A DNA stretch of 64,000 nucleotides, taken from the NCBI RefSeq assembly GCF_030127125.1, contig NZ_CP126156.1, positions 1,612,001 through 1,676,000 of the forward strand. The letters run 5' to 3'. Made by a program: the position numbers and the translations under genes. How positions within the stretch are numbered: the stretch's first letter is position 1; every line of letters starts with the position of its first letter. The notes below the pieces were generated by a model. That model saw only the letters and a program-made list of their open reading frames with translations, was not told the DNA's origin and did not search any database. Positions 854-7,362 of the stretch are shown one piece after another. This DNA comes from Halobaculum litoreum. GTDB taxonomy: Archaea > Halobacteriota > Halobacteria > Halobacteriales > Haloferacaceae.

Positions 854-1000
854 GTCGGGGGGCGTCCCGCCGGGAAGCGACGGGGCCGGTACCCGGGGCG
901 CGCCGATCGGTTTCACGCCTGATATTCGGGTCAGTAGGTATATACGACGATCCCGGATAGGGAGCGATAGCGGCACAGGGAGTGCGGAGCGACCAAGAAC

Positions 1001-1459
1001 ATGCTCAGACCGAGCGATTACGACCCGAAGGAGTTGCGAGCGTTGACGGGAGCGGCGGCGCCGACGCACGCCGACGAGGAAGCCGACCGGTGGACGGAGC
1101 CGGGCGACTTCCTCGGTCGAGCGGACGCGCGCGTGCGGGCGGCGCAGGTGGAAGACGCCTTCCTCCTTCAGGCGGCGGCCGGCGGCGCGGGCAGACCCTA
1201 CCTTCCGGAGCTACCGGACTCGGTGGTGGGGACCCAGCTCGTGCTCGACTGGTTACGCTACCTCGTCGGCGTCGGCGGGCGCGAACGCGCCCGCGAGGCG
1301 CTCGCGCTGTATCGGGACGTCGAGTGGCTCACCGAGTCGACCGAGGAGGCCCTCGCGGCCTACCTCGAGGCCTTCGACGGCGTCGAGGGCGACCGACTCG
1401 ACTTCGGCCACCATCGGACGAGCCTCCTGTTCGTCGCCCGCCTCGCCGCGCTCCGATAA
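1001..1459 (+). CDS. FlaD/FlaE-domain protein (archaellum accessory family)
   Basis: A 152-residue protein. The middle, from about residue 65 (YLPELPDSVVGTQLVLDWL), through ALALYRDVEWLTE, to AAYLEAF near residue 125, matches the FlaD/FlaE fold pattern: LP.. followed by a W-L--L helix, then -YY--I-WI-E and -YL-GF. In archaellum operons such proteins (ArlD/ArlE) form the cytoplasmic motor scaffold and meet chemotaxis proteins. Here the gene stands outside any visible archaellum cluster. It begins the operon: its TAA is two bases before the ATG of the actin-like gene. Family assignment is from pattern; the role beside an actin is inference. Confidence 0.65.
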   Translation: MLRPSDYDPKELRALTGAAAPTHADEEADRWTEPGDFLGRADARVRAAQVEDAFLLQAAAGGAGRPYLPELPDSVVGTQLVLDWLRYLVGVGGRERAREALALYRDVEWLTESTEEALAAYLEAFDGVEGDRLDFGHHRTSLLFVARLAALR

Positions 1460-1461
1460 CT

Positions 1462-2529
1462 ATGGCAGCAGAATCCGATTCAGCGGACGACAGTTTCGAG
1501 TCCAGCAATCCGACCCCCATCGGCGTCAAACTCGGCTCCACCCGGACCGTCCTCCGATACCGGGAGGCCGACGCCGACGAGATGACCACCGTCCGGACGC
1601 TCACGTGTCTGGCCCTCTACGAGGACGCGATCACCGGCGACGAGAAGGCCCTGTTCGGGGAGCAGGCCGCCGCCGAGTACCCCGACCGCGTCGAGTACAT
1701 GCTCCGCTCGGGCCTGCCCGAGGACGACGACCGCGCCGAGCTCGCGAGCCGCTTCTTCCGCGAGCAGCTCTCGGCCAACGGCGTCCCGCAGGACTCCGCG
1801 GTCGTGTACGCCATCCCGACGATGGAGAACGACGCCGGCCTCGAGAACCTCACCGAGGTCATCGAGTCGTCGGACATCGGGGCCCACACCATGCGCGCGT
1901 ACCCCGAGTCGCTGTGCGGCGCCATCCCCGCGATGGGCGACGGCGTCGAGGCGGTCTCGGACGTGTTCATCTCGGTGAACATGGGCTCCACGAACCTCGA
2001 GGCGTGCGCGTACCGCCGCGGCGACCAGCTCGTGCCCTTCTCCACCGGCTCGGTGACGGGCAACGACGTCGACCGCCGCATCGTCGCCAACGTCGAGGAG
2101 GAGACGCAGGGGCGCGTCCACGTCGACCTCACGACCGCCCGCGAGTACAAGGAGGAGCACGGCGACGTCGGCGACTTCGAGCCGTTCTCGGACGTGATCC
2201 AACAGCCCGGCGGCGGCTCCCACGAGTTCACCATCGCCGACAGCGTCGTCGACGCGCTCGACTGGTACCTCGACGCCGCCGTCGACGAGGTCGCCAACGA
2301 GTTCCTCCCGGAGCCCGCCAACGACTACATGAAGGTGTACCAGCTCTCGCTGGGCAACGACATCGCCCTCACCGGCGGGATGGCGTGCATCCCGGGCCTC
2401 CCCGAGGAGTTCCAGCGCCGCCTGTCGGCTGAGTTGGACCGCGACGTGAACGTCGTCGTCCCCGACGAGCCCGACCTCGCCGCGGCCGAGGGCGCCCGTC
2501 GGATCGCCGAGAAGCTCGCCGACCAGTGA
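1462..2529 (+). CDS. Actin/MreB-like protein of the salactin type
   Basis: A 355-residue member of the actin/Hsp70 ATPase superfamily, closest in character to the haloarchaeal filament protein salactin. Phosphate-1-like segment IGVKLGSTRTVL lies near residue 20, phosphate-2-like segment SVNMGSTNLEACAY near residue 175, and the adenosine-type motif IALTGGMACIPG near residue 310. The usual Asp of the phosphate-1 motif is Lys and that of phosphate-2 is Asn, so ATP handling may differ from MreB. It lies two bases after the FlaD/E-domain gene and six before a membrane protein gene, which suggests co-translation. Salactin is known to form dynamic polar filaments in Halobacterium; the same role here is inferred. 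Confidence 0.75.
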   Translation: MAAESDSADDSFESSNPTPIGVKLGSTRTVLRYREADADEMTTVRTLTCLALYEDAITGDEKALFGEQAAAEYPDRVEYMLRSGLPEDDDRAELASRFFREQLSANGVPQDSAVVYAIPTMENDAGLENLTEVIESSDIGAHTMRAYPESLCGAIPAMGDGVEAVSDVFISVNMGSTNLEACAYRRGDQLVPFSTGSVTGNDVDRRIVANVEEETQGRVHVDLTTAREYKEEHGDVGDFEPFSDVIQQPGGGSHEFTIADSVVDALDWYLDAAVDEVANEFLPEPANDYMKVYQLSLGNDIALTGGMACIPGLPEEFQRRLSAELDRDVNVVVPDEPDLAAAEGARRIAEKLADQ

Positions 2530-2535
2530 GGTCGT

Positions 2536-3372
2536 ATGGGGAGCTTCGAGTTCGGTAGCGACGACGCGACGGCGGCCGACGACCCGGCGACCGACCCGGA
2601 GCCCGCCGCCGACGGCGGCGCGGCGTTCGGCGAGCCCGCCGACACGGCCGTCGCCCCCGCCGAGCCGGAGCCGCTCCCCGCCGACCTCGACCCCGATTCC
2701 CGCGACGACCCGTCCCCGACGAGCGGCCGCGCCGCCGACGCGGACGCGCCCGCGCCCGCGACCCGGGCGTCCGTCGACGCGGTCGACGCCGCCCTCCTGT
2801 ACGCCGGCGAGGAGCCGCGGGCGGAGCTGCCGGTCGCCGACGGCCGCCTCGTGGCGACGAGCCACCGCGTCATCGCGTACGCCCCCGACGACGACGAGCG
2901 CGCGACGCTGCGCGGCGTCCACCGCGCGAACGTCCGCGCGGTGCGGCTGTCGTCGACCGGCACCGACTGGCTGGCCCGCCCCATCGCCTACTGCGTGGTG
3001 GGCGGGCTGGCGATGGTGGCCGGCGGCTCGCTCGTCTCCTTCGACGCGATGTCGACCACGATGCCCGACTCGGCCGGCGCCACCGGCGTCGGCGGCCTCC
3101 TCTCGACGATCGGGGGGATCCTGTCGATGCTCGCGTTCGTCGACGACCTCCTCCGCGTCGGCGGCGCGCTCGCGCTGCTGGCGGGCGCGGCGCTCATGGG
3201 CGTGTACGCCTACACACGCGGCCGCGAGGTCGTCGTCGAGACGGAGGGCGAGGCCGACACCTTGCGCGTCGCCGCGGCCGACGCCGACGGCGACGCAGTC
3301 GAGCGGTTTCGCGCGGCCGCGGGGCTGGAGACGGAGGACGACGGGACGCTGAAACGGGTGTTCGGACGGTAG
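2536..3372 (+). CDS. Acidic-tailed membrane protein, third gene of the actin operon
   Basis: A 278-residue protein of unknown function. Residues 1-80 are disordered, acidic and Ala/Asp/Pro-rich. Residues about 85-145 look like a small beta-rich PH-like module (DGRLVATSHRVIAYAPDDD). Two hydrophobic spans follow: AYCVVGGLAMVAGGSLV near 150 and VGGALALLAGAALMGVYAY near 205, with a glycine-rich loop between. A short charged C-terminus ends the protein. It begins six bases after the actin-like gene, so it is probably a membrane partner or anchor for that filament. That is inferred from position only. Confidence 0.6.
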   Translation: MGSFEFGSDDATAADDPATDPEPAADGGAAFGEPADTAVAPAEPEPLPADLDPDSRDDPSPTSGRAADADAPAPATRASVDAVDAALLYAGEEPRAELPVADGRLVATSHRVIAYAPDDDERATLRGVHRANVRAVRLSSTGTDWLARPIAYCVVGGLAMVAGGSLVSFDAMSTTMPDSAGATGVGGLLSTIGGILSMLAFVDDLLRVGGALALLAGAALMGVYAYTRGREVVVETEGEADTLRVAAADADGDAVERFRAAAGLETEDDGTLKRVFGR

Positions 3373-5323: not shown

Positions 5324-6898
5324 TCACTCGGTGAGGCGGCCGACGGACCCGCTCACCCGGTCGAGTCGGGCACGCTGTTCGTCCGCGGCGGTGGCGATCG
5401 CCTCGACGTTGCGCCGGACGGCCGCGGCCTCGGTGCTGGCCTCCTCGACGAGCGAGGCGACCTCCTCGGTCGTCGTCGCCTGCGAGTCGGTGGCGTTGGC
5501 GACCTCCTCGACGCCGGAGGCGGCCTCGCGGATCGCCTCGGCGATGCGGTCGAGCCGCTCCATCGCCTCGTCGACGCGGGCGACGCCGTCGGCGATGCGC
5601 TCCTCGGTGCGTTCGAGGCTCTCGACGGTGTCCTCGGCGCCGGACTGGATGTTGTCGACGAGCGACTCGATCTCGCCGGCGCGCTGTTGGGACTCCTCGG
5701 CGAGGCTCTTGACCTCGTCGGCGACGACGGCGAAGCCGTCGCCCGCCTCGCCGGCGCGGGCCGCCTCGATGTTCGCGTTGAGCGCGAGCAGGTTCGTCTG
5801 GTCGGCGATCCCGTCGATGACGGAGACCACCTCGTCGATCTCGCCGACCCGGCCGCGGAGGTCGTCGAGTTCGTCCGTCACCTCGTCGGTGGCGGCCTCG
5901 ATGTCCTCCATCGTCTCGCGCGCCTCGCCGGCGGCGTCGACGCCCTCCTCCGCGAGCGTCTCCGCGTCGCCGGAGACGGCCGCCACCTGCTCGGCGCTGG
6001 CGGCGACCTCCTCGACGCTCGCCGAGAGGGTGCCGACCTCCGCCTCCACCTCGGCCATCCGGTCGGCCTGCGTCTCCGCGAGGTCGGCCAGTTCGTCGGC
6101 GTTCCCGGCGACGTCGCCGGCGGCGTCGCCGACCTCCGCCAGCGGCGACGCCACCTCCTCCGACACCTCGGTCGTCAGCTCGCGCCGCCGGTCGATCTCC
6201 GACTCCATCTGCCGGGCGTACGAGTCGATGTACGTGTCCATCGCCACCTGCTGGTCGATCAACAGGAGCTTCAACAGGGGGACGAGCCGGTCGACGAGGC
6301 GGGACAGCGCCGCCTCGCCCGCCGAGTCCGCCGCGAGGTCCGTCTCCGCGCGCGCCTCGTCGGCCAGCGCGTCGACCAGTCCCTCGTAGTAGACGCTGTA
6401 CCCCGCGAAGTACACCCGCGGGCCCAGATCGAGCATGTCGTGGATCTTCCCGATCCGCGCGCGGCGCTCGAAGTACTCGCGTCCGTACTCCCCGCCCCCC
6501 AGGTCCGAGAGGTACGACTCCTGCGAGCCCTTCAGCGCCCGGATCCCCTTGCTGGAGCTGCCGAGGATCTCGCGCATCTCCTCGTTGTCCGTGAGGTGGT
6601 CGTAGAACTCCTCGACCAACGCCGGCGCCACGTCGTCGATCGTCGACTCCAGCGACGCCAGCGTCTCCTCGTCCGCCGCCGACAGCCGCGTGAACCGCTT
6701 TCGCGTCCGGATCTCCGCGTCGTCGATCCCGAGTCGGTCCGCGAGGCCGGCGCCGTCGACGCCGCGCCGGTCCGCGTCGGACACCGCGTAGCCGGCGTCC
6801 GGGCCCGCGTCAGGCGGTCCCGATCCCGCACGTGGATCCGCGACGCCGCCGTCGGTTCGTTCGCTCCCCCGCCCGTCCGCCCCGTCACGCTCTCGCAT
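5324..6898 (-). CDS. hemAT: HemAT-type globin-coupled aerotaxis transducer
   Basis: A 524-residue soluble chemoreceptor. After a disordered acidic leader (residues 1-55), a sensor-globin domain covers about 60-235 with proximal His 153 in [14 protein letters not shown] methyl-accepting coiled coil follows, with the signalling hairpin [16 protein letters not shown] and [16 protein letters not shown]. There are no membrane spans, as expected for HemAT, which binds oxygen at heme and signals to CheA. The start MRERDGADG was chosen over a longer frame to 6994 because an ATTAAA box at 6923-6928 lies 27 bases upstream, which predicts a leaderless mRNA. It is transcribed away from a CheY-like gene. 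Confidence 0.9.
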
Positions 6899-6922
6899 AC
6901 GTTCGTCTCCAGCGATGCGACG

Positions 6923-6977
6923 TTTAATCCAAACGCCCCGAATCTCACGACTGGTTCCGCCGCGTGAACACTTATCC
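6923..6977. promoter_or_regulatory. Divergent promoters of hemAT and the CheY-like gene
   Basis: On the minus strand ATTAAA (6923-6928) is 27 bases from the hemAT ATG. On the plus strand CTTATCC (6971-6977) is 27 bases from the ATG at 7000. Both distances match leaderless haloarchaeal transcripts. The 101-base intergenic region could carry a shared operator, but no clear palindrome was seen. Confidence 0.6.
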
Positions 6978-6999
6978 CGGGGCGGCGGTCCCACCCCAC

Positions 7000-7362
7000 A
7001 TGGTCAGACGGATCCTGATCGTCGACGACTCGGGGTTCCAGCGGACGCTCATTCGCGGGATCCTCGAGGACGACTTCGAGGTCGTCGGCGAGGCGGAGAA
7101 CGGGTCGGAGGCGGTTGAACTGTTCGAGGAGACGAAGCCGGACCTGGTCACGATGGACATCATGATGCCGGAGGTGAACGGCATCGAGGCGACCAGCGAC
7201 ATCAAACAGCGCGACCCGGAGACGCGCGTCGTGATGTGTACCAGCGTCGAACAGCGCGACCAGATGAGACAGGCGGTGAAAGCCGGCGCCGACGGCTACG
7301 TGACGAAGCCGGTCGAGGAGGACACCCTCCGGACGGAAGTCGAGAGCGCGCTGGCGGCGTGA
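7000..7362 (+). CDS. CheY-like single-domain response regulator
   Basis: A 120-residue receiver domain without output domain. Acidic pair D9/D10 (ILIVDDSG), phospho-acceptor D53 ([12 protein letters not shown]), T81 (VVMCTS) and K103 (YVTKPVEED) are all present, so it should be phosphorylatable. The divergent HemAT receptor suggests it acts in taxis, but the main cheA operon is not in this window, so it could serve another kinase. The ATG at 7000 was preferred to the upstream frame at 6964 because homology begins at [10 protein letters not shown] and the TATA box fits. Confidence 0.85.

Follow-up and report, generated by a model that had tools for sequence, protein, structure and literature searches.

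A conserved pairing of arlD with the gene for the actin-like protein salactin, tied to motility genes in haloarchaea

Genes and features of the locus

The window (the whole stretch of DNA that was analysed, 64 kb in length) carries a head-to-tail trio of genes, arlD, salactin and a membrane protein gene, which are separated by intergenic gaps of 2 and 6 bases. These genes and the other features referred to in the text are located as follows.

911..924, + strand: TTTCA-N4-TGATA, a 9/10 match to the CsmR operator (pattern search)
939..944, + strand: TATATA, probable TATA box of the arlD-salactin operon (position only)
1001..1459, + strand: arlD (flaD), archaellum switch-complex subunit of 152 aa (PF04659, 3e-18)
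1001..1051, + strand: short N-terminal motif, residues 1-17 of ArlD, put forward as a salactin-binding peptide (alignment)
1193..1447, + strand: FlaD/E domain, residues 65-149 of ArlD (PF04659)
1462..2529, + strand: salactin, actin-like filament protein of 355 aa (PF25229, 6.5e-171; NCBIfam salactin equivalog, 5.1e-169)
1528..1530, + strand: Lys23 of the phosphate-1 motif (salactin sequence)
1978..1980, + strand: Asn173 of the phosphate-2 motif (salactin sequence)
2536..3372, + strand: membrane protein of 278 aa, clade-limited third gene and possible anchor, without a credible family
5324..6994, - strand: neighbouring chemoreceptor, protoglobin and MCP signal domain (profile match; context only)
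6964..7362, + strand: CheY-like receiver protein (profile match; context only)

The preliminary description had reported the tight packing of the trio, and the open reading frames at 1001-1459, 1462-2529 and 2536-3372 bear it out; in a mechanical ORF call, the open frame of salactin can be extended 5' to a GTG at 982. The closest named relatives found are Halobaculum species, with the salactin of locus L073 being 93% identical. Further along the window, the protoglobin-MCP chemoreceptor (5324-6994) adjoins the CheY-like protein (6964-7362).

The first protein had been named as a FlaD/E protein and matches PF04659 with 66 bits (cut-off 21), the Pfam scan finding a FlaD/E domain and no FlaC match in a layout of N-terminal motif, linker and FlaD/E domain. 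Two PF04659 matches occur in the window genome (86% complete), namely this protein and a 482-aa frame, which adjoins genes resembling ArlF, ArlG and ArlI (named by likeness) in the arl cluster, where no further short FlaD/E gene was seen at this completeness. The FlaD of H. salinarum DSM 3754 (L153:12058-12531), which is encoded directly 5' of FlaCE, ArlF, ArlG, FlaI and a T2SSF gene, matches positions 1-166 of an ArlD profile built without it (7.3e-46). Because this end-to-end profile partner occupies the flaD place in the H. salinarum operon, the window protein is, as judged from profile match and gene place and not from a tree, ArlD itself, the orthologue of the fla-operon FlaD, and in the window genome its gene has moved out of the arl cluster. 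A side paralogue was also considered and was ruled out, since the same protein is encoded by flaD in the H. salinarum operon. The ArlD/FlaD proteins of H. salinarum and Haloferax volcanii share the FlaD/E domain and the N-terminal motif with the window protein, whereas the window arlD sits outside the arl cluster and beside an actin gene. FlaD is reported to be polar and to be indispensable to H. volcanii for archaella as well as for motility, and ArlD-GFP is likewise polar, with small foci that are mobile and now and then travel from pole to pole (PMC6509185). The CheF-type protein OE2404R is reported to interact with FlaD (PMC2666748), and accounts of H. volcanii and H. salinarum describe the binding of ArlD to CheF and ArlH and its requirement for archaella (PMC6509185, PMC2666748, PMC8978795).

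The second protein was rightly described as a salactin-type actin, as it exceeds the curated cut-offs over its full length (PF25229, 568 vs 27.1 bits; NCBIfam equivalog NF053533, 562 vs 400), and it falls below the Pfam cut-off for the volactin family (PF25216, 15.6 bits vs 35). Other actins have Asp at both phosphate-motif positions, and the replacements by Lys and Asn pointed out in the preliminary description are present at Lys23 and Asn173, but they are not special to this locus, since Lys occurs in 142/143 and Asn in 143/143 distinct salactins, the 143 being those caught by the motif pattern, including seven from loci outside haloarchaea. A loss of nucleotide use from these motifs was ruled out, given that the whole family shares them and that the salactin of H. 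salinarum is an ATPase. The MreB profile PF06723 was uninformative in 17 genomes, where the best match per genome was a frame of 640-891 aa, presumably of Hsp70 type, and salactin was weakly seen. The window protein shares its Pfam and NCBIfam family and the Lys/Asn motifs with the salactin of H. salinarum (VNG0153C), which, in contrast, lies far from arlD and is without a CsmR-type site, whereas the window salactin shares an operon with arlD. The volactin of H. volcanii is likewise a haloarchaeal dynamic actin but belongs to another family (PF25216), and its mutant is described as affected in cell shape and parent-like in motility (PMC10869688). The salactin of H. salinarum is reported to form dynamically unstable, ATP-dependent filaments that grow out of the poles, and the account of its deletion describes unchanged motility together with defects in DNA partition and viability in low phosphate (PMC10746226).

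The third gene had been proposed to supply a membrane anchor. A membrane protein is indeed encoded in the operon, but the anchor role fared less well, with homologues lying 3' of salactin in 9/40 loci of the genome-draw set and in 6/80 named loci (best 80 of 145; the two sets have some genomes in common). Several genera have such a homologue after salactin, Natronomonas among them. The protein gave no Pfam match up to an E-value of 1 and matched an NCBIfam pilin model weakly, far under its cut-off.

Conservation and surroundings of the arlD-salactin pair

Among 292 genomes drawn from the class, 140 carry salactin above the Pfam cut-off (142 among the matches listed at E <=1e-3, from which G049 and G288 were left out as falling under that cut-off), and linkage was counted over the ArlD matches listed, to ~1e-33. 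Among these matches, arlD lies <=2 kb from salactin in 114/140 salactin genomes and 23/28 genera, being upstream on the same strand in 113 of the 114; it lies ~5 kb away in two further genomes (genus g64), is distant or on another contig in 16/140, including 8/8 Halobacterium-genus genomes, and has no strong match in 8/140. A FlaD/E gene of more diverged sequence adjoins salactin in six of the last eight (G183, G277, G021, G220, G099 and, in convergent orientation, G110). Among named loci (best 80 of 145), a FlaD/E gene is found <=2 kb from salactin in 74, upstream in 73 and downstream in one (Haloferax mucosum L099); two Halosimplex loci have it ~5 kb away, and none was found near salactin in L091 (contig end), L134 (H. 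salinarum), L144 and L152. The open frames of the two genes overlap in L073 and L101.

Around 40 linked loci (of 43 chosen from the named set), the neighbours fall into 25 kinds on the upstream side and 27 on the downstream side, as counted with a simple gene finder that scores each unclustered gene as its own kind, and the arlD-salactin pair is therefore kept while the flanking genes turn over. The gene-order conservation expected from the preliminary description thus holds for the pair (114/140 genomes), whereas the outer neighbours vary and the third gene is clade-limited. Salactin synteny has been called poor even within Halobacterium, with DNA replication and repair neighbours noted (PMC10746226), and a split of arlD from salactin is seen in few genera, of which Halobacterium is one. 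The pairing is named in no title or abstract start found among open-licence PMC papers.

The conserved pair is also tied to motility genes. Locus L060 carries two salactins, one flanked by arlG and a gene for FlaC plus FlaD/E, the other by arlH and another such FlaC+FlaD/E gene, after which come a further arlH-like gene and the archaellum ATPase gene. In L065, two salactins are set among FlaD/E genes together with an arlG-like gene. The order in Haloferax L113 is cheY-cheC-cheD-arlD-salactin (the CheC and CheD families were confirmed on L116 and L049), and in L154 arlD lies ~5 kb from archaellins. Archaellins (PF01917) occur in 138/140 salactin genomes vs 94/152 without salactin, in raw counts with descent not factored in, and salactin occurs in 132/147 genomes with the window type of ArlD vs 8/145 others, again in raw counts and among the matches listed.

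Genes for a CheW-domain protein (28 loci) and a ParA-type ATPase (19 loci) occur near arlD-salactin, always on the opposite strand, some genomes being counted twice. The CheW proteins carry an arginine-rich N-terminal peptide in 26/28 cases (in variant form in L129), with L082 and L119 lacking it, and this peptide appears to resemble the end of the ArlD motif. Proteins with an N-terminal ERMDRA.RIR.MREG stand beside the ParA-type ATPase at L129:5391-7324, L125:5296-6345, L231:5528-7332 and similar loci, and the two look like a pair for ParA-driven partition of chemosensory arrays. Bacterial arrays are placed by ParA/TlpT and ParC/ParP, with ParA working with a chemotaxis partner, and the CheW-ParA pair that some loci carry on the strand opposite arlD is similar in this respect. 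Polar placement of ArlD and CheW is a theme in common with MinD2/MinD4 of H. volcanii (PMC11588486), which are ParA/MinD ATPases, whereas salactin is an actin.

Outside haloarchaea, no FlaD/E was found near salactin in 20 loci, several of which are short. Twelve of these 20 have a ParA/MinD-type ATPase 3' of salactin, with a coiled-coil gene detected between them in nine; rows of salactin, coiled-coil protein and ParA/MinD ATPase are found at L167:6935-9327, L173:6878-9388, L168:6908-9429 and L176:6872-9453. The families represented here, f15 and f35, are taken to be Archaeoglobi. Archaellins were matched in 16/21 salactin genomes outside haloarchaea and were without a match in 5/21. At the edge of haloarchaea, the Actinarchaeum-genus genomes G183 and G277 have salactin adjoining a FlaD/E-like gene and one MCP each, and profile search gave no archaellin or FlaC match in either among the matches listed. 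Actinarchaeum and relatives (L118, L142, L152, L062-L064, L067, L068) carry several salactins and FlaD/E-like partners, and one L067 protein has, by eye, the N-terminal ArlD motif twice.

Operator-like site and N-terminal motif of ArlD

The operator of the archaellum regulator CsmR is reported as TATCA-N4-TGATA (PMC13286277). The site at 911-924, which starts 90 bases 5' of arlD with a TATATA at 939, is the only place in the 64 kb window that comes within one mismatch of this operator, where 0.05 such matches would be expected, and is a candidate CsmR site by its agreement at 9/10 positions beside a TATA box. The same operator variant precedes a CheY-like gene elsewhere in the window genome (L158:12698-12711), and in the Halobacterium-genus loci L153, L161 and L225 it precedes an archaellin gene. 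A CsmR-type score of 9-10/10 was obtained for 42/131 FlaD/E upstream regions, which include some genomes twice, vs 42/3000 random windows, and by genus representative (hand-chosen, with the genus labels of L090 and L117 assigned by the author) the site occurs in 7/24, all seven from the window's own family. Because it was found in 0/29 promoter rows of salactins not beside arlD (>=2 rows being the same place) and before none of the four salactins of L060 and L065, the putative site is assigned to arlD, and salactin would share it by linkage. Deletion of csmR in H. volcanii is reported to upregulate ArlD/HVO_1202, described as one transcriptional unit, along with arl and che genes (PMC13286277). 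From gene order, HVO_1202 is probably salactin, because the pair is adjacent in 14/14 genomes of genus g7 (which includes Haloferax; among the matches listed) and H. volcanii has a Pfam salactin match (control). Haloferax also has a second short FlaD/E near salactin with its own 10/10 CsmR-type site (L113:13081-13521, L116:11455-11895).

The N-terminal motif is marked by residues M1, P4, Y7, D8, L12 and R13, which are invariant in 27 aligned ArlDs whose starts were chosen with the motif search, and it is followed by a variable linker. In 16/16 genomes with a distant salactin (among the matches listed), the profile match starts from position 1, with G093 as a variant. The window type of ArlD occurs without salactin in 15 genomes (among the matches listed), and here the motif varies: it is intact or near-intact in G003, G012 and G210, has Leu12 changed to Arg in G219 and G289, and is absent in G007, G001 and G129. 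Of seven salactin-free f6 genomes, five were read (G147 and G162 were left out), two passing the motif pattern and three being variant. In another set of 25 salactin-free genomes (G129 again included), the motif was not found in the best FlaD/E match, the one match read per genome, with a pattern that misses some variants such as that of L189. In G210, arlD directly precedes a gene 66-76% identical to the one found 3' of salactin in Halorubrum, and salactin was thus lost there; no remnant of it was seen. Although the exceptions are real, the motif pattern is suggestive of a peptide that binds salactin and decays once salactin is lost. At two che-arlD loci without salactin (L218:7307-8650, L219:6914-8086), the otherwise invariant Leu12 is changed to Arg, possibly by one event. 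In three salactin-free f6 genomes, a small protein is encoded directly 5' of arlD (L159:6844-7266, L221:6835-7221, L222:4443-4886); these frames of 128-147 aa are membrane-like by eye, and the one that was scanned is without a Pfam match.

Possible roles of the pair

The favoured reading, held at roughly even odds (about 0.5), is that ArlD tethers the archaellum switch to polar salactin through an N-terminal peptide that binds salactin. The operon encodes ArlD of the switch complex and salactin, a dynamically unstable actin growing from the pole. ArlD has the build of an adaptor, with a variable linker joining its short, conserved N-terminal peptide to the FlaD/E domain; the peptide would bind salactin, and polar salactin may in turn capture, tether or distribute motor precursors that contain ArlD. 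In some clades, chemosensory arrays might be placed likewise via the neighbouring CheW/ParA pair. The link between a polar actin and the archaellum or chemotaxis machinery that had been proposed at the outset is well supported by the gene order, the placement at arl and che genes, the co-occurrence and the CsmR-type site, and from these we infer binding of ArlD to salactin, a direction of action and a role in motility.

The pairing, the co-occurrence, the places within arl/che clusters, the motif pattern and the operator-like site all count for the tether. Against it stand the H. salinarum deletion strain with its unchanged motility, the split pair of Halobacterium, the 0/29 promoter rows with a CsmR-type site among salactins not beside arlD, the salactin-free genomes that bear the motif, the 94 archaellated genomes without salactin, the Actinarchaeum pair without archaellins, the 0/20 outside loci (several of them short) with FlaD/E and the raw nature of the counts, in which phylogeny is not factored in. 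The main contrary result is the H. salinarum deletion, with the same motility and a DNA phenotype, in a species that has the split arrangement. A related reading, doubtful in itself, is that salactin belongs to the structure at the pole, be it the polar cap or a track leading there, to which euryarchaeal archaella are attached, and that ArlD links the motor to this actin. In that case, the H. salinarum DNA phenotype would be secondary, or would be seen because the genus has uncoupled salactin from its archaellum genes. A polar cap has been described beside the motor, the connections between cap and motor not being resolved in that account (PMC8978795).

A wider role for salactin is the strongest rival to the tether and is possible, if tentative: salactin would be a general pole organiser with chromosomes, archaella and arrays as cargoes, ArlD would be one adaptor and ParA/CheW and coiled-coil proteins others, and the archaellum link would be real yet not the core function. 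The ParA/MinD-type ATPase after salactin in 12/20 outside loci (nine with the coiled-coil gene between), the CheW-domain and ParA-type genes opposite arlD-salactin (28 and 19 loci), the Actinarchaeum pair without archaellins, the 5/21 outside genomes without an archaellin match and the reported DNA phenotype of H. salinarum (PMC10746226) are all in keeping with such an organiser, although archaellins in 138/140 haloarchaeal salactin genomes are more than a free-standing role would need. The low-phosphate DNA phenotype and unchanged motility reported for H. salinarum (PMC10746226), together with the ArlD motif kept in three salactin-free genomes, would also suit a filament for chromosome segregation only, whose place beside arlD is inherited order without function. 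This is improbable, given that the pair survives while both flanks change, that salactin is separately found inside arl operons (L060, L065) and that it occurs in 132/147 genomes with this ArlD type (among the matches listed). A three-part machine, in which the FlaD/E protein and the actin would be complexed with the third protein as their membrane anchor, is highly improbable: the gaps of 2 and 6 bases and the third-gene homologues 3' of salactin in several genera, including Natronomonas, speak for it, but the third gene is found in 9/40 and 6/80 loci, whereas the pair is nearly general, and the third protein is without a function-giving domain.

Because synteny was considered poor in Halobacterium, gene context contributed little to the role proposed earlier for salactin. 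The pairing with arlD suggests that the salactin cytoskeleton holds or places the swimming machinery and does not only serve in DNA sorting, as has so far been proposed. It bears on the questions of how the pole retains archaella and passes them on and of what the polar cap is composed, and the ArlD motif offers a candidate binding peptide of ~15 residues. If the tether is true, salactin would be an actin serving a rotary motility machine in archaea.
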